Positions 1 to 22,552 of a DNA stretch of 24,535 bases are shown here, in pieces. Numbering within the stretch: the first letter of the stretch is position 1; every line of letters begins with the position of its first letter. The notes under the pieces are model-generated. The model saw only the letters and a program-made list of their open reading frames with translations. It ran no database searches and was not told the DNA's origin. The position numbers and the translations under genes are program-made. This stretch comes from a virus. The stretch spans positions 1 to 24,535 of IMG/VR virus record IMGVR_UViG_3300010883_018845; one strand, 5' to 3'.

Positions 1-1500
1 ATTTAACGCATGGGACACTTCTCGTCGGTCATTCCAATTTACAAATGCTAAGCTACTCTGTCTACCATCTAAAGGTGATAGTGCAACTTTAGAAATTCGG
101 GCCTGGGCCTCAAGTTTAGACATGGTAATTTTTATTTGAGGAAAGGCACGAAAATATTTTTGAATTAGCTTTTTAGCCTCAATAATATCAATCTCTAAGG
201 TATGTGCTAGTTTCATAGGCCCCATTCCATAAATTAGGCCAAATGTAATTGCCTTAGCTGCTTGACGTTCTATCTTTGTTACCTTATCATATGGTGTTTC
301 AAAAACTAAAGAGGCCGAATTTGTATGAAGATCTTTACCTGATTCTAATGCAGTTTTAAATTTTGGCTCCTGACTTATATGCGCTAATAGTCTAAGCTCT
401 TGGCCTGAAAAGTCGGCCGCAATAATCCTATAGTCAGCATTTTGAGCTGTAAAGGCTTCCCTGTATTCTTTAGTTGCAGGTATATTTTGCATGTTAGGTT
501 TTGCACTAGCATATCTGCCTGTATGTGCACGGCCTAATTGCCAAAATTCTGCATGTATACGTCCATCAACAGGATGAACACTTTTTTCATAAAAGTCTTC
601 GCCATATGTATTCACTCGTTTCATCGCCATCCGATAGTCTAACAACGCTTTTACAGTGGGGTTTGACTTATAAGCTTTAAGAGCTGTAGTACTTGTGGAC
701 GTAATAGGTGCTTGACAAATTGTACTTAAAATTGGTAATATTTGTTTAGGAGATTTATAGTTTATATCTACCGCATTAAATAAATCCAAATTACAATACT
801 GTTTAAAAGCGTTATCTAAGACGCTTTTATAAGTCTTAGCTTCTGATTCTGCAGCATTACACAAAGTCAGCCATTTAGCTCGATCTAGATGAATTCCATT
901 CAATTCGAGGTCTCCTGTTGCTCGTACACATTCGTTTTCTAAATCAGCAAGAAGACCCATATTACGTTTTTTAATTTCCTGCATTAGATAATCATACAGC
1001 TGTAAAAGATATTTTACATCATTTTGTGCATATTTAACTTGTTCTGCAGTAAACTCTGCACCGTATACCATTTTGGTAAATGTTAATTGTTCAGTTTTTG
1101 GTAATATTATATTTAGATAACTCTCGAGAAGATTAGCTAATCCATGACGTGCATTTAACACCCCTTGGGTAATTAAACAGTCTAGTAAAAAGGTATCTTT
1201 CATATTTTGCATATCCAGATAAAAATTAGATTTAAGCATTTTATAATCAAATTTAGCATTATGTAATACTTTTATAAGATCTGGATTTTCTAAGTAGCTT
1301 ATAAGATCCGGCATAGAATTTTCGAGTTTAGCTACATCAATAACATATTGATGAGTTTCATCACCAAGAGCGATCAATAGTACTTTGTCACTTAATGGAT
1401 CTAATCCAGTAGTTTCTGTATCTAAAGCGATTCGCTTTTTTTGTTTGAGTACTTCTAGAGCCTCAGCGAGTTGTTTTTTATTTGTTATATAAGTCATCAT
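1..1500 (-). CDS. polA: Family A DNA polymerase with 3'-5' proofreading exonuclease (partial, C-terminus beyond window)
   Basis: Replicative DNA polymerase of the phage. The 500 visible codons start with ATG ATG at 1500/1497, overlap the end of the sigma factor gene by about 20 bp and stay open to position 1, so the C-terminus, including the palm motif C (HDE), is missing. The N-terminal part is a DnaQ-like proofreading domain with all three motifs: LDTETTG (D27/E29), HNAKFD (about 80-85) and YAQND (about 158). The polymerase part shows motif A as ADFSGQELRLL (about residue 361; the usual form is DYSQIELR) and motif B as RQAAKAITFGLIYG (about 417). The residue equivalent to E. coli Pol I position 762 is Phe. 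There is no 5'-nuclease domain, as is usual for phage enzymes. All Trp codons seen are TGG. Identification is secure from the motifs. Confidence 0.95.
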   Translation of the reverse strand, partial: MMTYITNKKQLAEALEVLKQKKRIALDTETTGLDPLSDKVLLIALGDETHQYVIDVAKLENSMPDLISYLENPDLIKVLHNAKFDYKMLKSNFYLDMQNMKDTFLLDCLITQGVLNARHGLANLLESYLNIILPKTEQLTFTKMVYGAEFTAEQVKYAQNDVKYLLQLYDYLMQEIKKRNMGLLADLENECVRATGDLELNGIHLDRAKWLTLCNAAESEAKTYKSVLDNAFKQYCNLDLFNAVDINYKSPKQILPILSTICQAPITSTSTTALKAYKSNPTVKALLDYRMAMKRVNTYGEDFYEKSVHPVDGRIHAEFWQLGRAHTGRYASAKPNMQNIPATKEYREAFTAQNADYRIIAADFSGQELRLLAHISQEPKFKTALESGKDLHTNSASLVFETPYDKVTKIERQAAKAITFGLIYGMGPMKLAHTLEIDIIEAKKLIQKYFRAFPQIKITMSKLEAQARISKVALSPLDGRQSSLAFVNWNDRREVSHALN

Positions 1501-2314
1501 ATAAAAATGGTTGCAATAAGCCTCTTAAGCGTTTTGAGTTCATTTTTTGTAAAACCTTCTGTTTAATTTGTCGGATACGTTCACGTGTCAAGCCGAGATC
1601 AACGCCTATTTCTTCTAAAGTGTAGTTGCGTACTTGATCAATTCCAAAATACATAGATATAATATGTTGTTCACGTTGTGAAAAATTATGTAAGACGGTT
1701 TGTAATTCTTGTTTTAAAGAGTTTAAAAAGTCATCTTTTTCTGCTGCCGTAGGCTCAGTCGGGATTACTTCCTCTAATGTCTTCTTATTTTCAGTTTGTG
1801 GAGCGTCTAATGGAACATAAGAATAGGAAAACTTAGCATCTACAAGTAATTTTTCACGGCCAATTTTAACGAGATGTTGTTGCAACTCTTCTATAGTAGG
1901 AGGCCGCCCCTTTTTAGCTGTGAGCTCATGTTTAATACGAGATAATTTAGTTATATTGGTAATTTTATTTACAGGTAAACGAATTAATTTTGCATTTTCA
2001 TGTATGCTATTCATAATGGATTGGCGTATCCACCATACCGCATACGTTATAAAATTGTTTGTCCTTGTTAAATCAAACTTATGAAAAGCTTTTACTATTC
2101 CTAAATTTCCTTCTGCAATTAACTCTTCCAAGGTTAAACCTTGATTTTGATACTGTTTCGCCACTGAAACCACAAATTTTAAGTGGGATGATAATAATTT
2201 ATTATAAGCAGTCTGATTACCAGCTCTTGCTTCCGTAAGTAATTTACGTTCTTCTTCTCGCGTAATTGTTCCACATTTACCTAATAATTTAAAGTAAGAC
2301 TCTAAGCCTGCCAT
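1478..2314 (-). CDS. RNA polymerase sigma factor, sigma70 family (primary/RpoD-like)
   Basis: A sigma70-family protein expected to redirect host RNA polymerase to phage promoters. It has region 2 (LKFVVSVAKQYQNQG, then EGNLGIVKA and YAVWWIRQSI, the core-binding and -10-binding helices), region 3 and a region 4 helix-turn-helix (LEEIGVDLGLTRERIRQIK) near the C-terminus. The short length and the opening LESYFKLLGKCGTIT resemble the roughly 290-aa primary sigma factors of Bacteroidota (from memory, not a search). I chose the ATG at 2314 (278 aa). An upstream TTG at 2359 would add 15 residues, but that stretch lies inside an inverted repeat that looks like untranslated leader. It lies between a holin-like gene and the polymerase gene. 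Phages more often encode short divergent sigma factors, so a primary-type factor is unusual. All Trp codons are TGG. Confidence 0.93.
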   Translation of the reverse strand: MAGLESYFKLLGKCGTITREEERKLLTEARAGNQTAYNKLLSSHLKFVVSVAKQYQNQGLTLEELIAEGNLGIVKAFHKFDLTRTNNFITYAVWWIRQSIMNSIHENAKLIRLPVNKITNITKLSRIKHELTAKKGRPPTIEELQQHLVKIGREKLLVDAKFSYSYVPLDAPQTENKKTLEEVIPTEPTAAEKDDFLNSLKQELQTVLHNFSQREQHIISMYFGIDQVRNYTLEEIGVDLGLTRERIRQIKQKVLQKMNSKRLRGLLQPFLYDDLYNK

Positions 2315-2328
2315 AATTTTAATAAAGC

Positions 2329-2400
2329 GGGCATACAGATTCTGGGACTGGTCAATCAATAAGGAGTTGTATGACTATATTAAATCAAATCTGTATGCCC
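2329..2400 (-). promoter_or_regulatory. 13-bp perfect inverted repeat in the sigma factor leader
   Basis: GGGCATACAGATT at 2329-2341 is matched perfectly by AATCTGTATGCCC at 2388-2400, leaving a 46-nt loop. In the minus-strand transcript the stem begins 12 nt after the stop of the holin-like gene and closes 14 nt before the ATG of the sigma gene. It could be a processing site, a translational control element or a binding site. It has no U-tract, so it is a poor intrinsic terminator. The total length of 72 nt and a 7-bp end stem are tRNA-like, but no T-arm can be formed on either strand. What I see is the repeat; its function is inferred. Confidence 0.55.
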
Positions 2401-2412
2401 TACTTTAAAGTT

Positions 2413-2607
2413 TTACTTCTTTTTTCCTAAAGCGCCCAAAGCATCAACAATACCTTGGCCAGCTAGATAAGATGGTACAATTACAGTAATAGTGTCAATA
2501 ATAGAAGCAGATGCTTCTGCACTGATGCCTATCCACTCTGTTAACACGACGGCAAAAACGCCGCCCAATGCTACCCAAAGTTTCCTGCTTGTTAATTTTT
2601 CATTCAT
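2413..2607 (-). CDS. Small membrane protein, holin-like
   Basis: A 64-aa protein with a charged N-terminus (MNEKLTSRK), a hydrophobic segment around residues 10-28, a second hydrophobic segment around 35-55 and a short basic tail (KKK). This is the layout of small two-helix phage holins, which permeabilise the inner membrane so that endolysin can reach the wall. No endolysin gene is seen nearby, so the role is inferred from topology only. It could equally be another small phage membrane protein. The start is ATG, preceded by CAGGAA about 14 nt upstream, a Shine-Dalgarno-type signal. It ends at TAA just before the inverted repeat of the sigma leader. Confidence 0.6.
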   Translation of the reverse strand: MNEKLTSRKLWVALGGVFAVVLTEWIGISAEASASIIDTITVIVPSYLAGQGIVDALGALGKKK

Positions 2608-2632
2608 AAAACGTGTAATTCCTGATTAGTTA

Positions 2633-3244
2633 TTAAAAAGTATAAACGAATTTAGCTGGGCTATACACATGTCGGATATAATTTAAAATTAATTGCACAC
2701 CTATATTCGCAATAATTCGATTTCCAACTTGTATAATTCCAGCATTAAGATCTTGTGCTCGTTGACAACTGCCGCCTTCAGCAGCGTCTGCATTTTTATC
2801 AAAATTACCGAGCGTCTTGATCATGCTTTCTAGTGTATGAGATTTATGTTTACAAAAAGCTGCAACGGAGTTTCCTTCTGATCGTAAGTCAATCCAATGC
2901 TTATCTGCATTATTCTCTTGAAACGCCCAATTAAATAATAAGTTCCGAAATTTAGCGTTATCTACACATGACACTACACATGTATATGGATTAAGTTCAG
3001 CTGGGCTGACTATGCGTGTATCGATGCCGGTGAATCCATATTGATCACTGATACTATTTATCTTCTTTTCCATGAAGTCATCTTCTGTAAAGTTTTGATA
3101 TAGTAAATTAGGTGTATCTACAGTGTCATCGTCACAAAATGTTATTGGCACATCTTGTAATTGGTTGTGGTAGTTTAAGTGATATAACTGAGCTGCTAGC
3201 CAACTGCCTATGCCCCCAGCTCCTACAATAAGAATGTTTTTCAT
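2633..3244 (-). CDS. ThiF/MoeB/E1-like adenylyltransferase
   Basis: A member of the E1-like superfamily, enzymes that adenylate the C-terminal Gly of ubiquitin-like or sulfur-carrier proteins. Visible signatures are the nucleotide-binding glycine loop VGAGGIGSWLA (about residues 7-17), the acidic DDDTVDTPNLLYQ segment (usual form DxDxVxxxNLxRQ; the Arg is Tyr here), a following Lys (EKKINSI) and SCVDNAKFR near the middle. The CxxC zinc pairs of MoeB/ThiF are absent. Cys in GGSCQRAQ (about residue 160) is a candidate for the catalytic thioester Cys. At 203 aa it is shorter than typical MoeB. Its ATG overlaps the end of the JAMM protease gene by 4 bp (ATGA), indicating translational coupling, and a Gly-Gly-ending small protein is encoded two genes further upstream. 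That context favours Ubl activation over thiamin or molybdopterin synthesis. Confidence 0.88.
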   Translation of the reverse strand: MKNILIVGAGGIGSWLAAQLYHLNYHNQLQDVPITFCDDDTVDTPNLLYQNFTEDDFMEKKINSISDQYGFTGIDTRIVSPAELNPYTCVVSCVDNAKFRNLLFNWAFQENNADKHWIDLRSEGNSVAAFCKHKSHTLESMIKTLGNFDKNADAAEGGSCQRAQDLNAGIIQVGNRIIANIGVQLILNYIRHVYSPAKFVYTF

Positions 3245-3675
3245 ATTATCTCCGTAGTTGTTGTTGGGATAAACTTCCTATCTGTTTCATCCCCATTATA
3301 ATAAAATGTACTTAACTTATCATACTTAGGTGAGTAGATAATATAAATGCCTGCGTACCCAGCTCCATTTATATCTATTTGAGAGGGTATAGGTAAGCTG
3401 TGAGGATGTGTATGGAAGATACCTACTAAGTCTTTTGTATTTGTTTTATCGAATTGTTTTGTTTTAGATAAAACATTAAAAAATTCATTGGGATCAGGGA
3501 CGTAGTTAGCTCCTTGATCTTCTTTACTTACATTTGTTAAGGTATTAAATTGATCGCAAGTGTAAGTACCCTGGCCAGCATAACCGACCAGAGCCCCACA
3601 CACTTCTTTCGAAGAAAATTTATTGCCATATGAAATGAGGTTATCATAAACCTCTTTTGAAATACTAAAACGCAT
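3241..3675 (-). CDS. JAB/JAMM (Mov34/MPN) metalloprotease, deubiquitinase-like
   Basis: A 144-aa stand-alone JAMM domain, the fold of zinc isopeptidases that remove ubiquitin-like proteins. The full catalytic signature is present: Glu in SSKEVCGALVG (about 22-32) and HTHPHSLPIPSQID (His-x-His-Pro ... Ser-x-x-Asp, about 98-111). It starts at ATG overlapping the TAA of the 229-aa gene (TAATG). Its first stop is a TGA that overlaps the ATG of the ThiF-like gene. If TGA means Trp here, as in six other genes of the window, the protein would gain six residues and stop at TAG (3223-3225). Sitting directly next to an E1-like enzyme and near a Gly-Gly-ending protein, it most likely processes or removes that protein. 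The specific substrate is inference. Confidence 0.9.
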   Translation of the reverse strand: MRFSISKEVYDNLISYGNKFSSKEVCGALVGYAGQGTYTCDQFNTLTNVSKEDQGANYVPDPNEFFNVLSKTKQFDKTNTKDLVGIFHTHPHSLPIPSQIDINGAGYAGIYIIYSPKYDKLSTFYYNGDETDRKFIPTTTTEII

Positions 3676-4364
3676 TATCTACGTTTTGTAGTTTTTGTGC
3701 TTTTAACTGCTTGTTTTTGACGATACTCAGCAATTAAATGATTAGGAGCAGAATGCTCTATTTGTTCTTTTGTGAAAAGTCTTTTCACTTGTGTTTCGCT
3801 GACATTAAGTCCTCTATAAAGGGTACCTATATGAATATTATATCTAGGTGTTGTTACTTCAATAGGCTTTTTAGTATCATGTACACCAATTCCGCCAGTC
3901 TTTACACTAGGACGTTTCCTTGGCATATGATTCACAAAATCAGGAGTACCAGAACTTACATGTCCTACGTCTACTCCCATGTAGGTACGTCTGTACGCAT
4001 CTAAACAGCTATAAGTAATTGGGTTACCACGTGTATTTAATACATTTCTGGAGTTTAATTCATTAACGAGACTTGCTTGACACATGCCTTCCTCAATTTT
4101 GCTATTAATCCACTGACGTGTTGATGGGTCCTTCATTGTACCACAGTCTAGATTTAAATTAGCTTCTAAACAAAGATTTTTAACAACAGTGTCTGAGATA
4201 TTTAGGGATTGGCCTACTTTATGAACAAACTTAATATTTGGATTAGAAAAAGATCCAAGCTTATTTTTAAATTGGATGAATTGTTTTCTAATATAGTTTT
4301 TGGCTTCTTGTCTAAGTTCACCAGTTAATCGTTTACTATTTTTCATTATGGATAAAGTATTCAT
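3675..4364 (-). CDS. Hypothetical protein in the ubiquitin-like cluster
   Basis: A 229-aa protein that I do not recognise. It is basic, especially at the N-terminus (first about 50 residues rich in Lys/Arg) and at the C-terminal tail (KSTKTTKRR). The middle contains MKDPSTRQWINSKIEEG (about 105-121), which together with the following Leu-rich segment could be a helix-turn-helix-like DNA-binding unit, and several Cys residues without a clear zinc pattern. The basic character suggests nucleic-acid binding, which is only a guess. The ATG at 4364 is preceded by AAGGAAAC, a reasonable Shine-Dalgarno signal; a second in-frame ATG follows six codons later. Its TAA overlaps the start of the JAMM gene. 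It lies between the Gly-Gly protein and the JAMM/E1 pair and may be a target or adaptor. Confidence 0.75.
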   Translation of the reverse strand: MNTLSIMKNSKRLTGELRQEAKNYIRKQFIQFKNKLGSFSNPNIKFVHKVGQSLNISDTVVKNLCLEANLNLDCGTMKDPSTRQWINSKIEEGMCQASLVNELNSRNVLNTRGNPITYSCLDAYRRTYMGVDVGHVSSGTPDFVNHMPRKRPSVKTGGIGVHDTKKPIEVTTPRYNIHIGTLYRGLNVSETQVKRLFTKEQIEHSAPNHLIAEYRQKQAVKSTKTTKRR

Positions 4365-4413
4365 TTATTGCTTTGTTTCCTTTTTTATTGTTTTTATAGT
4401 ATGTTGTCTTAAT

Positions 4414-4450
4414 AATAAGGAGAGATTTAAATTTTAAACCTCTCCTTATT
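4414..4450. terminator. Long hairpin downstream of the Gly-Gly protein gene
   Basis: AATAAGGAGAG at 4414-4424 pairs perfectly with CTCTCCTTATT at 4440-4450. The AT-rich loop between them can extend the stem further (TTTAAA repeats). In the minus direction it lies just after the TAA of the 76-aa gene and about 50 nt before the start of the 229-aa gene. There is no clean U-run after it, so it may be a weak or bidirectional terminator or an RNA-processing or stability element. The stem itself contains AAGGAGAG, a Shine-Dalgarno-like sequence that would be hidden in the helix. Confidence 0.55.
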
Positions 4451-4459
4451 TAAGTTTAT

Positions 4460-4690
4460 TTAACCGCCAACTAAGGCGTTTGTTAAAGTAATATCTTCAG
4501 CAGCGAGCAGGTCATCTAAAGAGACGCTGTCTACGCTTGTCTGTTGGCCATTAAGATAGGCCCATTTACCGTTGTCTTCACATTCAACTTTTAATCGTTC
4601 CATTACATTTATTGCAGTATCGATGACTTCATCGTGGCCGCGGCTTGATACGATTTTTAAAGTTACTGTCTCTGTGAGTCCTTTTATCAT
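4460..4690 (-). CDS. Candidate ubiquitin-like / sulfur-carrier-like protein ending in Gly-Gly
   Basis: A 76-aa acidic protein whose last two residues before TAA are Gly-Gly. Predicted order: strand (VTLKIVSSR, about 9-17), strand (DEVIDTAI), helix (NVMERLKVECED), strand with YLNGQQ (about 45-50), then SLDDLLAAEDITLTNALVGG, which mirrors the (V/L)NG ... L..GD.V.L ... GG layout of ThiS/MoaD/ubiquitin-type beta-grasp proteins. This is pattern matching by eye, not a profile hit. Its ATG overlaps the stop of the 718-aa gene (ATGATAA), so the two are coupled. An E1-like enzyme and a JAMM protease follow two and one genes downstream. The natural reading is that the C-terminal Gly is activated by the E1-like protein. 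Whether it modifies proteins, lipids or a sulfur acceptor cannot be told from sequence. Confidence 0.68.
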   Translation of the reverse strand: MIKGLTETVTLKIVSSRGHDEVIDTAINVMERLKVECEDNGKWAYLNGQQTSVDSVSLDDLLAAEDITLTNALVGG

Positions 4691-6843
4691 GAATTTTTAC
4701 TGGTTAGTGTGTTTATATGTTGTGCCACACGTGAATCATTATGCAGCGCAAAGATTCTGTTGACAAGTTTGTCTTGTCCAACTTGTGATGTCGATTTGTC
4801 TACAATACAGATATAGTGCCCACTGTAAAAGTCATAGACTCCACAGCTACGGGCGGTTTCGTCTGCAGTGACATCAGGCTTTTCTAAAAAGTAAGTACGT
4901 ATGTCACCTTCAATTTTGTAACCAAATTTAGACTTTCCACCTACCTGCATTGTTTCTGCTGTTATATTAAACAGAGTTTCCGTTTCCTGTAGAAGCAGTT
5001 TACTTTTTTCGACAGCGTCTACATAAGCTTGTTTACCATCAAGGATAAGTTGCTTAATATCATCAGCTTGTACATCATATACAGCTGAGCCATCAAGTAA
5101 AACAGTTATTACTTCTAGGATATTGTTTTTCTTAGAAAGTCTAATTAATTTATGTGTGTCAGAGACAGGGAATTCCCTTTCTCCTAAGACTAAGTACATT
5201 TTACCTCTACGTCTTTCTAGCGGAAATTTCATAGTTACTTCTGTACAATCGAACTGGTCTGATACCGCAATATCAATTCCAATCTGAAGATAACGGTGAA
5301 AGAATAAAGAGCACGTACTTACACTTTTTAAGAAGCTATCATAGTCGGTTTGATTTTCAAAGCATAAAGCACGTTCAAGTACTTTTTCTAGCTCTTGTGC
5401 ATTTATACGTCGTTCATTCACATACCAACGTATACTAGTAATACCTCGTGAGTTTGTACTCTCTTGGTGTGTTACTGAAAATATTACATCACCAATTTTT
5501 CCAGATATCGCATTATGACCCTCAATAATAAATCCAGTAATAAGTTTTACAAAAGATTGTATCACTGTATCAAAATGAATATCAGAAATATTTTGAAACC
5601 TTGTAAGATGTCTTACAATTGCGTATGGCCAATTTTCCAAGGCCGTAGTAGTAATATCAGTAGAGATTTTAAGTTCTTGACCTTGATATTCAATTGTCGA
5701 ATGCGTAAATACCATGTCATTTATTTTTAGCTCTCCACCTTCTTTTTGTAAGACCTTTATTTTATCACTGGCCTTTTGTTGGAGCCTCTCCTGCGCTTCT
5801 GATTCACGTTTTACTCTAGTTTTACGGTTCATAAAGCGTTTTACAGCTTGTGTAAGCTCTACGTTTGTTAGTAACCCAAAGTGTTCTTTGGTAATACCTT
5901 TTGCACGACCACATTCATTAATAATATCCGCCTGTTCGGGGATAGCAGGCTCATCATCTAAAAAGAAATATTTTCCTAAGCATGTTTCATAGGAACTTTT
6001 ATCCATGTAAATGAACCTCCCTATATCACAGTAGTCATATACAGGGTGCGTATGAGGTATTATGAAGAATGAAAAATCTTCATAAGAACGCCTGTTGTAA
6101 TAGTAAGACTTGCCACCTGTACCATGTTTTACAATAACAAACCTATAATTGTCTGCCTCACCTACGTAAACTAATAAACCCATGTCTTCAAGCCGATTTA
6201 AAATTTCGTCTTGCTTAGAGGTAATAGCGTCCTGTTTAATTATAGACTGTGAAAGAGTCGGCCATAGTTTTTGTAATAGAATTCCTAGCGGCTTCATTTG
6301 TTCGTCGTCTATTCCAGATGAGTCAGCGTTATTAAATTCCTCTAAATTAGCTATCATATGTTGTTTACACAACTCTATCCCATCTGCTACTGTAGTTATA
6401 GACTGGATTCCATCTAATGCACACTTACGTTCAGCTAATAAATTTAAAAATAAATCTAACATTTTTAATTCATCGGTATTTATATCGCTAAGAGTCGGTA
6501 ACATCAAACCCCTTTTGGGATTTGGCATATCATATCGACTATTAGTTGTGTACATATAACAATCTGATAGTTTGTGTTGTTTCATTGCATTAATTACCGA
6601 GACTGTTGTATTGCTTTGATCAGTTGGTACTTTACGTAACTGAATGTCGCATGTATCGGTTATACAACGAAACGCCAAAATAGTATCTGTTAGGGAAAAA
6701 TGCCAAAACGATCCGTTCAAAGAAATTTCTTTCCAATCAGTATGTTTCTCTGCAACTGTTTTCAAGTCAGAGAGTTGTGAGGAGCTTAAATTCAATGAAT
6801 ATAAATTGTTTACGGCGGGTAAAAGTTGTAATGTTGTTCTCAT
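4687..6843 (-). CDS. Large hypothetical protein (718 aa) coupled to the Gly-Gly protein
   Basis: A 718-aa soluble-looking protein with no signal peptide or clear membrane segment. I recognise no family. Visible pieces are an N-terminal mixed region, a hydrophobic beta-rich segment around 225-295 including IIPHTHPVYDYCD (about 260-272; a His-x-His but without the Ser/Asp of a JAMM site), a charged probable coiled coil around 325-370 and a Cys-containing C-terminal half. It sits directly upstream of the Gly-Gly protein with a stop-start overlap, so it is the best candidate for the missing conjugating partner, scaffold or substrate of the ubiquitin-like system; that is inference. The stop is TGA followed immediately by TAA. 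If TGA is Trp here, the protein gains one residue. The ATG is preceded by ACCAGGAA. All other Trp codons are TGG. Confidence 0.85.
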   Translation of the reverse strand: MRTTLQLLPAVNNLYSLNLSSSQLSDLKTVAEKHTDWKEISLNGSFWHFSLTDTILAFRCITDTCDIQLRKVPTDQSNTTVSVINAMKQHKLSDCYMYTTNSRYDMPNPKRGLMLPTLSDINTDELKMLDLFLNLLAERKCALDGIQSITTVADGIELCKQHMIANLEEFNNADSSGIDDEQMKPLGILLQKLWPTLSQSIIKQDAITSKQDEILNRLEDMGLLVYVGEADNYRFVIVKHGTGGKSYYYNRRSYEDFSFFIIPHTHPVYDYCDIGRFIYMDKSSYETCLGKYFFLDDEPAIPEQADIINECGRAKGITKEHFGLLTNVELTQAVKRFMNRKTRVKRESEAQERLQQKASDKIKVLQKEGGELKINDMVFTHSTIEYQGQELKISTDITTTALENWPYAIVRHLTRFQNISDIHFDTVIQSFVKLITGFIIEGHNAISGKIGDVIFSVTHQESTNSRGITSIRWYVNERRINAQELEKVLERALCFENQTDYDSFLKSVSTCSLFFHRYLQIGIDIAVSDQFDCTEVTMKFPLERRRGKMYLVLGEREFPVSDTHKLIRLSKKNNILEVITVLLDGSAVYDVQADDIKQLILDGKQAYVDAVEKSKLLLQETETLFNITAETMQVGGKSKFGYKIEGDIRTYFLEKPDVTADETARSCGVYDFYSGHYICIVDKSTSQVGQDKLVNRIFALHNDSRVAQHINTLTSKNS

Positions 6844-6870
6844 AGTTTTCTGTTTCCTGGTTAATCGATT

Positions 6871-7299
6871 TTAATCGAATAAGTTTGCCTTTTCCTCTTG
6901 TACAGGAGTTGCAAACATTTTCTCTAACTCATTTGTGTTACATGCTGCGAATACTAAGTAGTTATTCTGGTCCGGAAATGTTTTTACGGCCATTCCAACA
7001 ATGTCACGTAAATTCTTAACTTGATAATGCTTAAGAAGTTTTGCAACAGTTGAGTTTGCAGCAAGATTGCCCTTTTCATCCAGAGTTAACCACAGACCTT
7101 GTATTTTTAATCCACCCTTGGAATCTTTTACCCACGTATCAGATATGTTAAATGTTCGTCCATCTGACTGTGATACTTTAAATAAAACCTTTTTTGATAT
7201 AGACCCGCTTACGGGAACTTCAATTTCTTCAATTGAATCAACTGTTACGGTTCTATCAAGTTTTCCGATTCCTAAGTCTAGTATATTTGTGTCTGTCAT
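6871..7299 (-). CDS. Hypothetical protein, first gene of the leftward ubiquitin-like cluster
   Basis: A 142-aa acidic protein not assigned to a family. It is mostly short alternating hydrophobic strands in the first two thirds (IEVPVSGSISKKVLFKVS, then NISDTWVKD), followed by a helix-rich segment with STVAKLLKHYQVKNLRDIVG (about 83-102) and a strand (NYLVFAA). The segment G.L...S..AKLL resembles small single-domain OB-like proteins of phage replication regions, but the match is too weak to name. It is the first gene after the terminator that follows the ribonucleotide reductase gene, and it is separated by 27 nt from the 718-aa gene. The ATG is preceded by AACCAGAAGAG. Confidence 0.75.
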   Translation of the reverse strand: MTDTNILDLGIGKLDRTVTVDSIEEIEVPVSGSISKKVLFKVSQSDGRTFNISDTWVKDSKGGLKIQGLWLTLDEKGNLAANSTVAKLLKHYQVKNLRDIVGMAVKTFPDQNNYLVFAACNTNELEKMFATPVQEEKANLFD

Positions 7300-7334
7300 A
7301 GTTTGTCTCTTCTGGTTATGTTTTTGTTTAGTTT

Positions 7335-7374
7335 AAAAAAAAACTAGCTATATATATGCCCTATATATAACTAG
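7335..7374 (-). terminator. Rho-independent terminator after the ribonucleotide reductase gene
   Basis: On the minus strand the arms CTAG(T/C)TATATATA can form a roughly 13-bp stem (7344-7374, one G-T wobble) around a GGGC loop, followed at once by nine T residues (7343-7335). It lies 26 bp after the TAA of the nrdJ-like gene. Stem plus U-run is the classic intrinsic terminator, and it separates the reductase transcript from the 142-aa gene and the ubiquitin-like cluster. Confidence 0.85.
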
Positions 7375-7377
7375 CTT

Positions 7378-7394
7378 TCTTATACCAATTTATA
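7378..7394 (-). repeat. 17-bp intergenic repeat, copy 1 (possible promoter-like element)
   Basis: The minus-strand 17-mer TATAAATTGGTATAAGA occurs here and again, exactly, at 23970-23986. Both copies are in intergenic DNA. It contains TATAAA and TATAAG, which resemble -10 boxes. Here it lies between the nrdJ stop and the terminator hairpin, so a transcript starting from it would begin at the hairpin. Function is unproven. Confidence 0.4.
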
Positions 7395-7399
7395 CTGCT

Positions 7400-9448
7400 T
7401 TATGCAGTAGTCTTTTCTTTACTTTCTACTGGAAGATTTCCATTGGTAGAAGGTTTATCAAAATCGAGCTCGCATGTATCATTATTGCAAAATCGCTCGA
7501 CTATAGCCTCACTACCTTTAACTTGTCGAAAGCTTAGGTAGCCTAACTTTTCTATCTTTGTGTTATATTCCTTTTCTGTTATTTCTTCATATGGCATTTG
7601 ACGATAAGCGCCCTTACCTGTTTTAGGTAAAAAGGAGATACCTTTTAATTGATATTGAAAATAATTAAGCGCTGCGGCTATCTGATGCCCCTCTGTTTCT
7701 GGATCGAATGTTACAGTACAGGAGACTTGGTTATCAGCCCAATTTCTTTGCATAAAAGCGGCCAAGCTGAGTTGTTCCCACATAGATACTTCAGAAACTG
7801 TACGAATACCTTCACCAACATCTACAGGAATTTCTACAACCATAGTTGTATCTTCACTGCCATAAGCCGGTTCAACTTTATAATTAGCATTTTGTAGAGG
7901 TGTAATAAGCGGCGATAGTTTAGATAGACGTATGCGTCGAATATAAAAACGACTCTCAGGATAATGTAACCCTGGTGTAGCACCAGCTAATAAAGATACA
8001 GTCCCTGATGGTTTTACAGATGTTGTCTTTATACTTCGCGGGACCGCGAGCCAATCAGAGTATAATTTATCATAGCCTTGTATACTATCGTAACCAAATT
8101 CAAGCCATTTTTTAAGTTCACCATGACCTCTTTGTGTAATAAATTGCGCGATACCACTTACGGAGCATCCAATCCTTCTGTTACGTAACATTACACGATT
8201 TGTTTCTGGCCAATGAGTTTTACCTAACGTAACTGTTTTTGCATAAAGATAGGCATACTTAATTGTTTTGATATAATCATCTAAATTTTCGTGATTGTTG
8301 GGGAATGTTTCTACTAAACAACAGAGCTCATATGATTCAAGAGATTGTTCTAGACAAGGATTTCCACCAGCAACTCGCTGATCTTTCCTGTCCGCACCAT
8401 TTCTCATACGTGAGTAGTTTTGCATATTAGATAGCCATGCGAAGCCGGGCTCCCCATTATCATTTATGCGTTTTGCAGTTTCAGTATAATCCATACCTAA
8501 CTCTGCAAAAACTGAATTATTACTGGTCCATCCATACTCTTCCCTATGAGGATTTACTTTATAGTTTTTTAATTGGATGTATTCCTCGCTATTCATCTCT
8601 CCAAACACAATCTCAGCTGTTCGTCGTACATTACCTGCAACGACACACTTTCCTATAAGATTCATAATATCTACAATAGTAGTTATAGTTATTGGAGATC
8701 CAGTGTTTGCATCCAACTTTTGTATAACTTGTGTATGAAGACTTTTTAATGGTTTGTGTCCTGAGGAGACACCTCCAAAACCTTTTATTGGCTGTCCTTC
8801 GTCACGAATTAGATCATAATTAAATGTTAGAGGAGCTGTTCCTAAAAAGTATGAGTCTAATAGTAAACGTAAACTTTCTACCCACCCTTCTCTAGAGTCA
8901 GGTATTTGATAACAATCTGTTGGCCGGGAAGTATTTTGACCTTTAATTAATACTTGTTCTGCGCCTTTGGTATCAAACCCAACCCCTACTCCTAACATAC
9001 TTGCATCCATTAGAAAGCAGAAGGGTTTTGATAAATCTTCTTTTAGCGTTATTGTACTAACAAAGGCACAATTATTTAAAGCTGCAAAAAGATTTCGTTC
9101 TTCAGTAATTGCAGTGCCCATAGCCCATAATCCTCTACCAGGAGGTAAAAATTTCATATTAAATATTCTATCATACATTTCTTGAGCGGAACGTTGAGCT
9201 TGCCATGCGTTCCATCCAAGTTGATGTGAATCAATCCAATTTTTTTGCATGTTGTAAGTTCCATCTACAACACGTCGGACAGTTTCCCACCAATTTTCGT
9301 TTTTATTATCTGATTTTACACGGCTATAGGTTCTCATATATACGAGTTCACCTAGACCATTAAACCCAAAAGGTGGGCGTCTTCTTTTATATTTTTCGAC
9401 AAATGTGTCGGTTAGTTCAAACTTTTTATATTCTTGTTGAGTTAGCAT
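7400..9448 (-). CDS. nrdJ: Class II (adenosylcobalamin-dependent) ribonucleoside-triphosphate reductase
   Basis: Reduces ribonucleotides to deoxyribonucleotides for phage DNA synthesis, using coenzyme B12 instead of a metal-oxygen cofactor. The 682-aa protein matches the monomeric Lactobacillus leichmannii type: N-terminal FVEKYKRRRPPFGFNGLGE (about 16-34), FLPPGRGLWAMG (about 100-111), the active-site NNC at 127, GNVRRTAEIVFG (about 272-283), the thiyl-radical motif NPCLEQ (C365, E367), ELCCLVET (about 374-381) and the C-terminal re-reducing pair CNNDTC (654/659). Length is slightly below the 739 aa of the prototype. It overlaps the upstream 76-aa gene by 23 bp and ends at a strong terminator. 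All 14 Trp codons are TGG, unlike the genes just upstream. Host supply or uptake of B12 is implied. Confidence 0.96.
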   Translation of the reverse strand: MLTQQEYKKFELTDTFVEKYKRRRPPFGFNGLGELVYMRTYSRVKSDNKNENWWETVRRVVDGTYNMQKNWIDSHQLGWNAWQAQRSAQEMYDRIFNMKFLPPGRGLWAMGTAITEERNLFAALNNCAFVSTITLKEDLSKPFCFLMDASMLGVGVGFDTKGAEQVLIKGQNTSRPTDCYQIPDSREGWVESLRLLLDSYFLGTAPLTFNYDLIRDEGQPIKGFGGVSSGHKPLKSLHTQVIQKLDANTGSPITITTIVDIMNLIGKCVVAGNVRRTAEIVFGEMNSEEYIQLKNYKVNPHREEYGWTSNNSVFAELGMDYTETAKRINDNGEPGFAWLSNMQNYSRMRNGADRKDQRVAGGNPCLEQSLESYELCCLVETFPNNHENLDDYIKTIKYAYLYAKTVTLGKTHWPETNRVMLRNRRIGCSVSGIAQFITQRGHGELKKWLEFGYDSIQGYDKLYSDWLAVPRSIKTTSVKPSGTVSLLAGATPGLHYPESRFYIRRIRLSKLSPLITPLQNANYKVEPAYGSEDTTMVVEIPVDVGEGIRTVSEVSMWEQLSLAAFMQRNWADNQVSCTVTFDPETEGHQIAAALNYFQYQLKGISFLPKTGKGAYRQMPYEEITEKEYNTKIEKLGYLSFRQVKGSEAIVERFCNNDTCELDFDKPSTNGNLPVESKEKTTA

Positions 9449-9656
9449 ATAGTTCTATGATTGCAGTAATCTCCTTAGTAGGTAAATAAACAGTATGTAT
9501 AATAGTTGCTGGATAATCTTCCAACACACTCTCTACATTGTGTGGTATTAATTTTGTATAAACTTCATTATGTTCCGGAATATGACCTATACCAGTAAAC
9601 ATAGGAGTAATAATTTGATATACAGATGTATCATTGGGAATTGTTTTTATAAGCAT
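9426..9656 (-). CDS. Hypothetical small protein
   Basis: A 76-aa protein that I do not recognise. It is rich in Ile/Thr/Pro with several short predicted strands and no Trp, Cys pair or membrane helix. Its 3' end overlaps the start of nrdJ by 23 bp. Its ATG lies inside a possible read-through extension of recU (see that gene). The position in a tight overlapping series and the absence of competing frames support it being real. No function can be given. Confidence 0.65.
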   Translation of the reverse strand: MLIKTIPNDTSVYQIITPMFTGIGHIPEHNEVYTKLIPHNVESVLEDYPATIIHTVYLPTKEITAIIELYANSTRI

Positions 9657-9685
9657 AAGTCTAAATACTGGTTAATATTGGTTAG

Positions 9686-10096
9686 TCAGTCCTTTTTAAA
9701 ATCTTTAATTGGTATAGATTTACGTGTATTTCCATACCAATATTCTTTAACGATAGATAGCGGTGTTACAAATGCCTCGTTATCATATAGTTGTGTAAAG
9801 TGAATGAGAAAAAATCCAATTCCCCCCAACTCCTCTACTAATTCTAAGTAGTTTAATTGATGATCGTGGATATTGGCTAACGGAAAGCTGGTCTTACTTT
9901 TTGTTTCTTTAGCATCAAAGGCAATAAATTTACCACCCTTTATAAGGCCAGTATAATCTACAGTTGATCGTTGAGCAATCAACCCTTTACTTGTATATAA
10001 TATAGGCACTGGGACTTTTAATATCAAGGCCTCTTTTGCTTTCCTATAATTTAAATTTGCTTTATTAGCACGTTTTTCAAGTTGATTTACTCTCAT
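9686..10096 (-). CDS. recU: RecU-like Holliday junction resolvase
   Basis: Resolves recombination or replication intermediates by nicking four-way DNA junctions. The core of the family is clear: QRSTVDYTGLIKGG (about 40-53), IAFDAKETK (about 56-64, the catalytic D...E-x-K set), SFPLANIHDHQLNYL (about 69-83) and GGIGFFLIHF. At 136 aa it is shorter than Bacillus RecU (about 200 aa), the missing part being mostly N-terminal. The ATG overlaps the TAA of the RmlD-like gene (TAATG). The first stop is TGA at 9686-9688. If TGA is Trp, 13 more residues (WLTNINQYLDLCL) are added before TAA at 9647-9649, overlapping the next start. Its first 22 codons are duplicated 2.77 kb upstream (see 12717-12863), so this gene marks the edge of an acquired cassette. 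Confidence 0.9.
   Translation of the reverse strand: MRVNQLEKRANKANLNYRKAKEALILKVPVPILYTSKGLIAQRSTVDYTGLIKGGKFIAFDAKETKSKTSFPLANIHDHQLNYLELVEELGGIGFFLIHFTQLYDNEAFVTPLSIVKEYWYGNTRKSIPIKDFKKD
10031..10096 (-). repeat. Direct repeat, downstream copy (5' end of intact recU)
   Basis: Codons 4-22 of recU (10031-10087) are identical over 57 bp to 12798-12854. The flanking AGCTAATGAGA just before the recU start is also shared with the end of the glycosyltransferase gene at 12.87 kb. Together the two copies bracket the three-gene sugar cassette. Confidence 0.92.
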
Positions 10097-20012: not shown

Positions 20013-21488
20013 TTAAGTTTGATTTTTAATTGTATCGCAAAGAAATTGACAATAGACACCACATTTAAGTTTGCCATCATCAAAAATTTCGGAGTCATCT
20101 TTTAATATCCCTGTCCACGTTTTAAAAAGGTGGGCCTTATCGAGAGGACATTTAATTTTATTAACTTCACGAATTGCGCGTTTTAAATTAGTTGTTTTAT
20201 TAGCTAATCGGCCGTACAGTACCTTATTTTCCAAATATTGTTGTACTGGTTCCACAGCTTCATGTGGATTGTCAGTAGAATAACGAATATAGTTATGGAT
20301 TGCAGACTCTGATAATACGAGTTTAAATTGCGTAGGGGAAATTTTGACTAACTCTTTATTAATACGGCTACGAAACGCATGTACTTTTGCCATGGAGATA
20401 TCTTTACGACCTGTCCCATGGCGATCTGCAATCCGTAGATCAATTAAATCATGAATATTCTTAGGCCCAACTCGTTCGATTAATTTTCGAATATTTTTAA
20501 TAGGAACCTTTGCATAAGCATCAAATAAATGATTTCGGACGAGTAAGGAGACTTTCTGACTTAGTTGTTTAGGAAAACCCCACCTAAATAAAATTCGTTC
20601 AGATAACATAGCTCCTACAATTTCATGACTATAAAAATGCATGCCTGTTTCTGTGTGAATTTGTGTATGAGGTTTAGCAATATCATGAAGCAGGGCCGCA
20701 AGTCGAATAACAACACTATTTGTTTGGCCAATTTTAACACTGTCTAATGCGTACATAATGTGTTGATAAAGATCGAGATTGGCACGTTTATTGGATTGTG
20801 GAATCCCTACACAGAGCATTAGTTCTGGAAATAAGCTATCAAGTAATTTAGTTGAACGTAAGATATTAAAGACCCTACTGGGCACTTGACATTCTCCGAA
20901 CACTTTAATAAACTCTTGGCGAATTTGACTCGTATGAGCCATTGTAATTTTTAAATAGAATTTTTTAATTGACTCATGTGTATCTGCAGCTAATTTCCAA
21001 CCTTCTCCCAAGGTTCCTACTAATACAGGACCGCTAAATAAGCGAACTTTAGACTCAAGAAGACTTGATTCGCCATTAATTAAACGAATTATTTTGTTAT
21101 CTATATCTTGCTTTGCATTATAGAAATTTAACCAAGTATTTTTGATTGGGTTATAATACAGAGCTTGTATAGTATATCCTCGATGTTTGGCATCGGCTTC
21201 AAAGGAAAGAGTAGAACTGTAACTACAATACGTATGATCTAATTTTATAATTTGCAATGGGCGAATAATAAAAATATTACTTCTGTAGTGTATTTTAAAA
21301 GTACTGTTATGTGGGTCTGTAGAAACCACAAATTCTTTAAACTGTGCCTGTAGTTCAGCGAAAGAGGCGGCAACAGCAACACAATGTCTCTTAGGAGACT
21401 TCTTTAAATACATATCCCGTGCAGTTTCATCACTGATATAAGCTTGATAACCGCGGGATTCTATAAGTTTTATAATACTGGCATACAT
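20013..21488 (-). CDS. CCA-adding-enzyme/poly(A)-polymerase homologue with degenerate nucleotidyltransferase site and intact HD domain
   Basis: A 491-aa protein aligned by eye with tRNA nucleotidyltransferases. The head domain is recognisable (ESRGYQAYISDETARDMYL), but the G-G-x-x-R-D loop reads S-D-E-T-A-R-D and the metal-binding D-x-D reads R-H-C, so catalysis of CCA addition is unlikely. RRDFTIN is HRGYTIQ. The C-terminal HD domain looks complete: DLYQHIMYALD (His), AALLHDIAKP (H-D), FYSHEIVGA (His) and IADRHGTG (Asp), consistent with a metal-dependent phosphohydrolase. I chose the ATG at 21488, preceded by GAGGATATATAAAA, over a TTG ten codons upstream. It is either a pure HD hydrolase on a dead nucleotidyltransferase scaffold or an RNA-binding factor. 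No tRNA is encoded in this window. Confidence 0.82.
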   Translation of the reverse strand: MYASIIKLIESRGYQAYISDETARDMYLKKSPKRHCVAVAASFAELQAQFKEFVVSTDPHNSTFKIHYRSNIFIIRPLQIIKLDHTYCSYSSTLSFEADAKHRGYTIQALYYNPIKNTWLNFYNAKQDIDNKIIRLINGESSLLESKVRLFSGPVLVGTLGEGWKLAADTHESIKKFYLKITMAHTSQIRQEFIKVFGECQVPSRVFNILRSTKLLDSLFPELMLCVGIPQSNKRANLDLYQHIMYALDSVKIGQTNSVVIRLAALLHDIAKPHTQIHTETGMHFYSHEIVGAMLSERILFRWGFPKQLSQKVSLLVRNHLFDAYAKVPIKNIRKLIERVGPKNIHDLIDLRIADRHGTGRKDISMAKVHAFRSRINKELVKISPTQFKLVLSESAIHNYIRYSTDNPHEAVEPVQQYLENKVLYGRLANKTTNLKRAIREVNKIKCPLDKAHLFKTWTGILKDDSEIFDDGKLKCGVYCQFLCDTIKNQT

Positions 21489-21490
21489 TT

Positions 21491-21775
21491 TTATATATCC
21501 TCTAATTTTGCGCCACAATAATCAGTGACCTTGGCAAGGCTCCAAACACGACTTTTAATGATATGAAAATCACATACACATGTACTATAAGTCGTTGGCC
21601 ATCGTTGTTTATTATTGTGATCCGTACGCGCTTGACCTGTCGCTTTGGTGCGAGCATATTCACTCCCCAAGCGACAGTTTCCACGCCGTTGATTACCTTT
21701 GTAGTACCAGTAGAATTTACAATTTCCACAGCTTCGTACTATTCGATAGTTTGTTCTTGTAACTTCGTCTTCCAT
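21491..21775 (-). CDS. Small Cys-rich protein, probable zinc-binding
   Basis: A 94-aa basic protein with CGNCKFYWYY near the N-terminus, NCRLG soon after and TCVCDFH (about 65-71) and one more Cys (DYCGAK). The pattern C-x-x-C ... C ... C-x-C-x-x-H suggests a zinc ribbon or finger, common in small phage proteins of unknown role. I place the start at ATG 21775, overlapping the deformylase stop (TAATG), rather than the GTG at 21787. The TAA is followed 3 bp later by the CCA-enzyme homologue. No function is assigned. Confidence 0.72.
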   Translation of the reverse strand: MEDEVTRTNYRIVRSCGNCKFYWYYKGNQRRGNCRLGSEYARTKATGQARTDHNNKQRWPTTYSTCVCDFHIIKSRVWSLAKVTDYCGAKLEDI

Positions 21776-22326
21776 TATTCTATGCACAGTTTGCCCATAA
21801 GATGATCATATTCATGCTGAACTATTTGTGCATATGGTCCAAGGTGGCCATAGAACTTTGTAGTTTGAGGAATAGAATTACTTAGGGTTTGATAAGTCAG
21901 AGTTACATTAGAGCGCCGCTGTTTCTTTTTCGACGGCACTGTGTGAGTTCTAAGACTAAGACAACCTTCTTCCAGCTTAATACGTTTACCACTCAAGACT
22001 ACATCGGGATTGATAATTTCTTGCCAACTCCAACTTTTATAGTCGTTTGTAGGCCACCGCATAACAAAAACTGCTGGATACACAGATTCCTTTGGCCAAA
22101 GTTGATTAGCTGCTAAGCCCAGACAATTGAAACTTAACGCATTGGCTGCTGCTTTTAAATCTACAATGAACTGCTCAATTTCCGATTCCCAAAGACTTAC
22201 CTTATCAGACGTAATTTGGGTTAACGAGGTTTCTTGTAACTTTGATAATGGAATTACTGGTTGAGCTTTTTCTTTCAGTATTGGAGCGGGATATTGATTT
22301 ATGAGTTCTGAAGTTTTATCCTTCAT
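21775..22326 (-). CDS. def: Peptide deformylase
   Basis: Removes the N-formyl group from nascent proteins. All three active-site motifs are present: CLGLAANQLW (about 79-88), EEGCLSLR (about 120-127, metal Cys) and QHEYDHLMG (about 170-178, two metal His and the catalytic Glu). I prefer ATG 22326 (183 aa) because QYPAPILKEKAQPV then falls near the N-terminus as in the family; the upstream ATG at 22368 would add 14 residues. The gene overlaps the 78-aa upstream gene by 11 bp. There is a loop of about 30 residues between the first helix and the GLAANQ motif. Phage deformylases are known in marine phages, where they help translate phage proteins or keep photosystem proteins active; here the purpose is unknown. 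Confidence 0.93.
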   Translation of the reverse strand: MKDKTSELINQYPAPILKEKAQPVIPLSKLQETSLTQITSDKVSLWESEIEQFIVDLKAAANALSFNCLGLAANQLWPKESVYPAVFVMRWPTNDYKSWSWQEIINPDVVLSGKRIKLEEGCLSLRTHTVPSKKKQRRSNVTLTYQTLSNSIPQTTKFYGHLGPYAQIVQHEYDHLMGKLCIE

Positions 22327-22552
22327 TAACTGCGTCCATAAACAGTTGATACGCGTCATCTGCCCCATCTACTTTTAAATCATTTTCAATAAATGATTTT
22401 CTTTGATCCGGGTCAGTAGGTAAGGTAGTTACTAAACCAGATGCAGTAATAGCAAACTGTGTGCCTGGAGGGTTACACCAAGTTGCTAATGTTTCTTTAC
22501 GTTCTTGTCTTTGTGAGGGTGTTAATCGTTTCCAATTAAAACGTTTTGACAT
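22316..22552 (-). CDS. Hypothetical small protein
   Basis: A 78-aa protein with a basic N-terminal part (SKRFNWKRLTPSQRQERKE) and an acidic C-terminal half (NDLKVDGADDAYQLFMDAV). I do not recognise it. It is likely to be real: it has one of the best ribosome-binding sites in the window (AAGGAGAATCACAATG), lies between the helicase and the deformylase and overlaps the latter by 11 bp. Trp codons are TGG. Confidence 0.75.
   Translation of the reverse strand: MSKRFNWKRLTPSQRQERKETLATWCNPPGTQFAITASGLVTTLPTDPDQRKSFIENDLKVDGADDAYQLFMDAVNEG

Follow-up and report, generated by a model that had tools for sequence, protein, structure and literature searches.

In bacteria, ubiquitin-like systems are familiar chiefly from defence against phages, as in Bil and CBASS type II. 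CBASS type II requires a CD-NTase and Cap2, a fusion of a conjugating (E2) and an activating (E1) enzyme, while in the tail-assembly proteins TAPI/TAPK of phages lambda and T1 a ubiquitin-like protein (Ubl) and a JAB protease with an NlpC/P60 domain are encoded in the tail gene block, with no E1. Five types of operons with E1 and JAB genes were described by Iyer et al. 2006 (PMC1779556), of which type 6d comprises a small protein with a C-terminal Gly, a helical protein, an E2-like protein, JAB with an N-terminal domain and E1. In our reading, type 6d corresponds to the PRTRC cassettes of plasmids, with which we compare here an operon of a probably tailed, uncultured phage. The operon is located in the 24,535-base IMG/VR virus record IMGVR_UViG_3300010883_018845, the whole of which is referred to below as the window.

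The window contains, all on the minus strand, genes of a ThiF/E1-like adenylyltransferase of 203 amino acids (aa; 2633..3244), a JAMM/JAB metalloprotease of 144 aa (3241..3675), a 229-aa protein (3675..4364), a candidate ubiquitin-like modifier of 76 aa (4460..4690) and a 718-aa protein, a candidate transfer (E2-like) protein or scaffold (4687..6843). These five open reading frames (ORFs) are placed as in the first-pass annotation of this DNA, the operon, phage origin and unfamiliar make-up of which were also supported. We give a slightly better than even chance to the reading that the operon encodes a minimal system of reversible ubiquitin-like conjugation, acting during genome replication.

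Activating enzyme, protease and candidate modifier

The ThiF-like protein matches PF00899 (E=6.3e-12, 45.6 bits versus the Pfam curated cut-off of 28.1) and contains the nucleotide-binding loop GAGGIGSW, residues D38, K61 and D95, and a cysteine at the catalytic position, C160 (codon 2765-2767). The glycine loop and these four residues are invariant in an alignment with E1s of plasmid PRTRC cassettes, E1s of cultured phages and ThiF of E. coli, which bears out the E1-like identity. The top NCBIfam match is PRTRC_ThiF (TIGR03736; E=5.4e-10, 39 bits, below the cut-off of 144.75). No relative was found in a scan of bacterial and archaeal genomes with a ThiF query, and no stretch of a diverse ThiF alignment was conserved enough to serve as a scan query.

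The protease matches PF14464 (E=5.3e-11, 42.9 bits versus the Pfam cut-off of 25), and its catalytic set, E24 and H88-T-H90-(7)-S98-xx-D101, includes the intact HxHx7SxxD motif HTHPHSLPIPSQID at 3373-3414, so the JAMM assignment is upheld. The claim that all catalytic residues are present stands for JAB, whereas in E1 the usual arginine of the NLxRQ motif is replaced by tyrosine (NLLYQ). The nearest curated NCBIfam family of JAB is the haloarchaeal desampylase NF041370 (E=9.6e-18, 64 bits, below the cut-off of 130), and the closest solved structures are those of Pyrococcus JAMM1, alone and in complex with ubiquitin-like SAMP2. The protease also matches PADLOC models of defence (JAB and E1-E2) and has a weak match to Cap3, the isopeptidase of CBASS; among the NCBIfam and PADLOC models, it is closer to the desampylase than to any defence JAB.

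The scores against defence models bear on a role in counter-defence, suggested earlier for this operon, in which E1, JAB and the modifier would disturb a Ubl-based defence of the host (CBASS type II, Bil or Bub), for example, by stripping host tags or competing for them. Stripping of host tags, however, needs neither a free-standing modifier nor E1, the operon is located in a replication block, and JAB is nearer to the desampylase. Counter-defence is possible, but nothing in particular points to it, and we consider it the least probable of the alternatives.

The 76-aa protein ends in ...DITLTNALVGG, and the exact C-terminal Gly-Gly is present in both the window and its sole relative, the two proteins being 93% identical. 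Among 112 ATG-started ORFs of at least 50 aa on the two contigs, three end in Gly-Gly, and two of the three are this pair. Conservation of the terminus, raised in the first-pass annotation as a test, thus holds for the one relative, but it is a weak test and says little, because only two sequences with 93% identity are compared. Owing to its size, its terminus and its neighbours, the 76-aa protein is retained as a probable modifier, and not as a demonstrated beta-grasp protein.

Comparison with described systems

Judged by E1 and layout, PRTRC (Iyer type 6d) appears to be the nearest known system, although the operon falls outside it. Both have a standalone small protein with a C-terminal Gly and a free-standing JAB beside a free-standing ThiF-type E1, both are carried by mobile replicons, the order Ubl, other gene, JAB and E1 is the same, and PRTRC_ThiF is the family most similar to the phage E1. 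The phage JAB, in contrast, is of the desampylase type, whereas the signature of PRTRC-A is HSHxxMxxFFSxTD, and no match of the phage JAB to PRTRC_A (TIGR03735) was found in the NCBIfam scan. Unlike PRTRC cassettes, the operon proteins have no matches to Prok-E2_D/PRTRC-B, PRTRC-C or ParB, and the phage operon additionally encodes proteins of 718, 229 and 142 aa.

Pairs of E1 and JAB are encoded by cultured phages, namely, crAss001 (gp76/gp77) and Flavobacterium phage Fpv1 (gp53/gp54), in the replication blocks of both. The loci of the crAss001-like phages (gp75-gp78 in crAss001) and Fpv1 resemble the window in that the pair lies near genes of primase, uracil-DNA glycosylase, resolvase or ribonucleotide reductase (RNR), and a neighbouring protein carries an HSH...C[LT]G motif. 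They differ in having JAB of the PRTRC-A type and neighbouring proteins with no detectable homology to the 718-aa protein; no small ORF ending in Gly-Gly was found near these pairs. In crAss001 gp75-gp78 (4950-9433 of the extracted locus) and Fpv1 gp52-gp57 (4719-9901), the conserved YMHSH...C[LT]G protein is gp78 and gp57, respectively, and gp78 of crAss001 could represent a new E2-like family.

Salmonella phage Arash (gp246-gp248 and an unannotated 66-aa ORF) similarly carries a small protein with a C-terminal Gly, JAB and E1, but its set is of the PRTRC type: one of its proteins is Prok-E2_D-like, and the small protein has the end GTKG, resembling that of PRTRC-C. The 66-aa ORF (OQ632216.1, about 180513-180713, reversed; 107-307 of the extracted locus) has a good ribosome-binding site and the end ...RRTGTKG, similar to PRTRC-C, and is overlapped in another frame by the annotated gp251. 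Its neighbour gp248 matches Prok-E2_D weakly, gp247 matches PRTRC_A (1.8e-21) and gp246 matches PRTRC_ThiF (7e-15), which suggests a complete PRTRC-type set in this phage. A comparable E1 and JAB pair is also present in Acinetobacter phage ME3, where the JAB gene is split at the HxH motif: ME3_135 ends in ...VVVMDIH, and the remainder is seemingly in ME3_131 (2164-4190 of the extracted locus). The interruption consists of a group I intron (RF00028, 81 bits, 2856-3192 of the extracted locus), tRNA and small ORFs resembling remains of homing endonucleases.

Other systems are more distant. Bil (BilABCD) likewise has Ubl, E1 and JAB encoded by a single operon, but its two-domain Ubl is cut by BilC, its E1 is large and two-module, and it has a clear E2 (PMC11354881), whereas the phage operon encodes a single small protein with a free Gly-Gly and a 203-aa E1, with no clear E2, and is not Bil. 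With CBASS type II (Cap2/Cap3) the operon shares E1-type and JAB enzymes; no CD-NTase, E2-E1 fusion or effector was found among the operon proteins with Pfam, NCBIfam and PADLOC, and it is not assigned to this type. Nor does it belong to the TAPI/TAPK type, since it lies among replication genes and includes E1. The archaeal SAMP/UbaA/JAMM1 system is similar in its small modifier with Gly-Gly, single MoeB/ThiF-type E1, no obvious E2 and JAMM desampylase, but the operon is phage-borne and has extra partners, and homology of the 76-aa protein to SAMP was not demonstrated.

A phage cassette of E1 and JAB is therefore not unique to the window, because crAss001, Fpv1 and Arash carry such sets. Particular to the window is the combination of a small Gly-Gly protein, desampylase-type JAB and partners of 718, 229 and 142 aa. 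In the open-access literature on phage Ubl operons and on ThiF/JAB of crAss phages, no paper describing them was found.

Proposed conjugation and its alternatives

The favoured reading, reversible conjugation, is based on matches of E1 and JAB above the Pfam cut-offs, with an invariant catalytic Cys, an intact JAMM motif and a conserved Gly-Gly; on the proximity of JAB to the desampylase and JAMM1, with conserved gene order and a ratio of non-synonymous to synonymous divergence (dN/dS) of 0.03-0.17. The logic of a small protein with a C-terminal Gly, JAB and an adjacent E1 is that of Iyer type 6d (PMC1779556) and of Arash, E1 and JAB pairs are also located in the replication blocks of crAss001-like phages and Fpv1, and no rhodanese, ThiG or MoaE domain was detected among the operon proteins scanned.

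Several results weigh against conjugation. Foldseek with the AlphaFold model of the 76-aa protein (elements E-H-E-E-H-E, mean pLDDT 66) detected no significant fold; HPr-like folds rank first among the non-significant matches, archaeal SAMP2 is 22nd (E=0.62) and the TGS domain 44th. The beta-grasp fold expected in the first-pass annotation is thus neither shown nor refuted by this weak model. No Ubl family match of the 76-aa protein was found in scans with Pfam, PHROG, NCBIfam and PADLOC or with the ThiS and PRTRC_C families, a search of the window for PRTRC_C (TIGR03738) yielded nothing at E<=10, and alignments to ThiS and MoaD of E. coli were not at all or barely better than those of shuffled sequences (p=0.34 and 0.05, respectively). 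Adenylation by E1 may be impaired, since tyrosine replaces the arginine of NLxRQ and the N-terminal extension is absent; this arginine is also lost in E1s of crAss001, Fpv1 and a homologue from a Thermoanaerobacterium plasmid. In agreement with the earlier observation that no E2 is obvious, no Pfam or NCBIfam match to E2-like proteins (PRTRC_B/Prok-E2_D) was found in any operon protein. Comparisons by hhalign and hmmsearch, run with shuffled controls, connected neither crAss gp78 nor PRTRC-B with the 718-aa protein, whose homology to them was rejected. Finally, the operon has a single close relative.

The HPr-like matches, the lack of a Ubl family match and the 95-nucleotide (nt) gap with a hairpin, between the 76-aa gene and the genes of the enzymes, are consistent with another possibility: E1 and JAB truly belong together, but act on a substrate encoded elsewhere in the genome, the 76-aa protein having, for example, an HPr-like or other small fold. 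A protein of this size with an exact C-terminal Gly-Gly beside E1 and JAB, retained in the relative, is, however, an unlikely coincidence, and we regard this explanation as quite improbable.

The main rival is a sulfur carrier. The 76-aa protein would be adenylated by E1, its C-terminal thiocarboxylate would be the sulfur donor for a nucleotide, tRNA or cofactor, and JAB would free the carrier from adducts. At the position of C160, E. coli ThiF has a cysteine that participates in sulfur transfer, the ...DITLTNALVGG end is ThiS-like by eye, and the phage JAB is desampylase-like; archaeal SAMPs serve both conjugation and sulfur transfer. On the other hand, no rhodanese, cysteine desulfurase, ThiG, MoaE or tRNA thiolase was detected with Pfam among the operon proteins scanned, and it was argued by Iyer et al. 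(PMC1779556) that E1/JAB operons without rhodanese act by conjugation. We assign a rather low probability to the sulfur carrier.

The candidate for transfer in conjugation is the 718-aa protein, 80% identical in the relative, for which no family (Pfam, PHROG, NCBIfam, PADLOC), fold or phage match was found. Its residues 264-290, HTHPVYDYCDIGRFIYMDKSSYETCLG (5974..6054), contain the motif H264xH...E286xC288xG, resembling crAss gp78 proteins. Of shuffled sequences, 0.8% contain the pattern HxH-(8..30)-CxG, and 0.1% when Glu is required two residues before Cys. Among 248 ORFs of at least 150 aa of the compared loci, the pattern is present in both 718-aa orthologues, in nine of nine crAss gp78/Fpv1 gp57 proteins and in one of the about 237 ORFs belonging to neither family; the motif was spotted before the statistics were run, so both counts flatter it. 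The AlphaFold model (pLDDT 32) was unusable and was not used, and a scan of bacterial and archaeal genomes with the 718-aa alignment yielded nothing. The suggestion that this protein acts in transfer is accordingly sustained at the level of the motif and not by profile tests, and its possible E2-like function is no more than a lead. The idea of another E2-like site at its C-terminus (YICIVD) was dropped, as no test supported it.

In the proposed conjugation, the 76-aa modifier would be adenylated at its exposed Gly-Gly by the ThiF-like E1 and carried as a thioester on C160. From there it would pass to amino groups of target proteins, with or without the 718-aa protein (possibly its C288) as an intermediary, and the JAMM protease would remove the tag from targets. 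Maturation of the modifier would not require the protease, because the Gly-Gly is already terminal. Likely targets would be proteins of replication or host takeover, including the 142-aa and 229-aa partners. A stronger form of this proposal is a complete phage-evolved cascade, in which E1, the 718-aa protein as a new class of transfer proteins, the di-Gly modifier and a desampylase-like deconjugase reversibly tag replication or takeover proteins, as one of several independent phage solutions (crAss001-like, Fpv1, Arash and ME3). We consider this form tentative and on balance doubtful.

Organization, genomic setting and divergence of the operon

The transcription unit probably begins upstream of the five genes, with the gene of a 142-aa protein with the acidic tail EEKANLFD (6871..7299), after a terminator-like hairpin followed by nine T (7334..7384), both on the minus strand. 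In the 5'-3' direction, the unit contains genes of the 142-aa, 718-aa, 76-aa and 229-aa proteins, JAB and ThiF, followed by those of a 64-aa holin-like protein directly downstream of ThiF (2413..2607, minus strand; phrog_9987 holin, E=1.3e-4) and a sigma factor. The described coupling of genes applies to the 718-aa and 76-aa genes (4-nt overlap), the 229-aa gene and JAB (1 nt) and JAB and ThiF (4 nt), but not to the 76-aa and 229-aa genes, which are 95 nt apart.

Between the latter, on the minus strand, lies an intercistronic RNA hairpin (4408..4454) of 21 bp with a 3-nt loop (minimum free energy -21.2 kcal/mol, z=-7.4). Its pairing is complete in the relative as well, the differences being three compensatory double changes and a single G-U change; as two sequences are compared, the shuffle control for this covariation is weak (63/500). 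Since it has no T run, it is read as an element of mRNA processing or stability; located 3' of the modifier gene, it could keep modifier levels above enzyme levels. The hairpin between RNR and the 142-aa gene (-22.8 kcal/mol, z=-5.9) is kept in the relative with eight T. No match was found in the Rfam scan of the window.

The 229-aa protein is probably a helix-turn-helix DNA-binding protein: two such stretches are visible by eye, the second of which resembles the 'recombinase' domain of serine recombinases, and a weak sub-threshold Pfam match to RWP-RK was found. The 142-aa protein, 98.6% identical in the relative, has no match in Pfam, PHROG, NCBIfam or PADLOC. No homologues of the 718-aa, 229-aa and 142-aa proteins were found among phages by tblastn.

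According to Pfam and PHROG matches, the unit is surrounded by genes of class II RNR (682 aa; 7400-9448), Holliday junction resolvase, single-stranded DNA-binding protein (SSB), Sak4 and DNA helicase, as well as glycosyltransferase, metal-dependent hydrolase, tRNA nucleotidyltransferase-like protein and peptide deformylase. The 34.7-kb contig of the relative continues with PolA-type DNA polymerase, and its opposite strand encodes PhoH and a tail-sheath-like protein, which suggests a contractile-tailed phage. Given these neighbours in both contigs, we assign the operon to the replication genes (RNR, Sak4, SSB, helicase and DNA polymerase) and not to virion genes, and modification of virion proteins, proposed at first, is therefore less likely. 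The phage-encoded peptide deformylase and tRNA nucleotidyltransferase-like protein are located at 21775-22368 and 20013-21518 of the window, respectively. The phage-encoded RpoD-like sigma factor (1478-2359) includes regions 2-4 and is 70% identical to that of the relative, being far more divergent than its neighbours.

When viral contigs were scanned with JAB, the 718-aa and 76-aa proteins and RNR as queries, the operon was found in IMGVR 3300022227_001926 alone, where the entire gene order is retained. Protein identity across the unit is 80-99%, and each gene in the block has a dN/dS of 0.03-0.17, which indicates real genes under purifying selection. Synonymous divergence is about 0.23-0.30 in the genes of the 142-aa and 76-aa proteins, JAB and ThiF, and 0.61-0.77 in those of the 718-aa and 229-aa proteins and RNR. 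This unevenness and the patchy identity profile suggest that the unit was shaped by recombination among relatives; along 1478-7299, low and high synonymous divergence alternate in a mosaic pattern.

A small phage version would be a tractable model for what plasmid PRTRC cassettes do. The E1 and JAB pairs of cultured crAss001, Fpv1, Arash and ME3 make the proposed tagging testable without the uncultured phage. If a phage does have a modifier, E1 and deconjugase of its own, encoded alongside its replication genes, the role of ubiquitin-like tagging would extend to phage replication.

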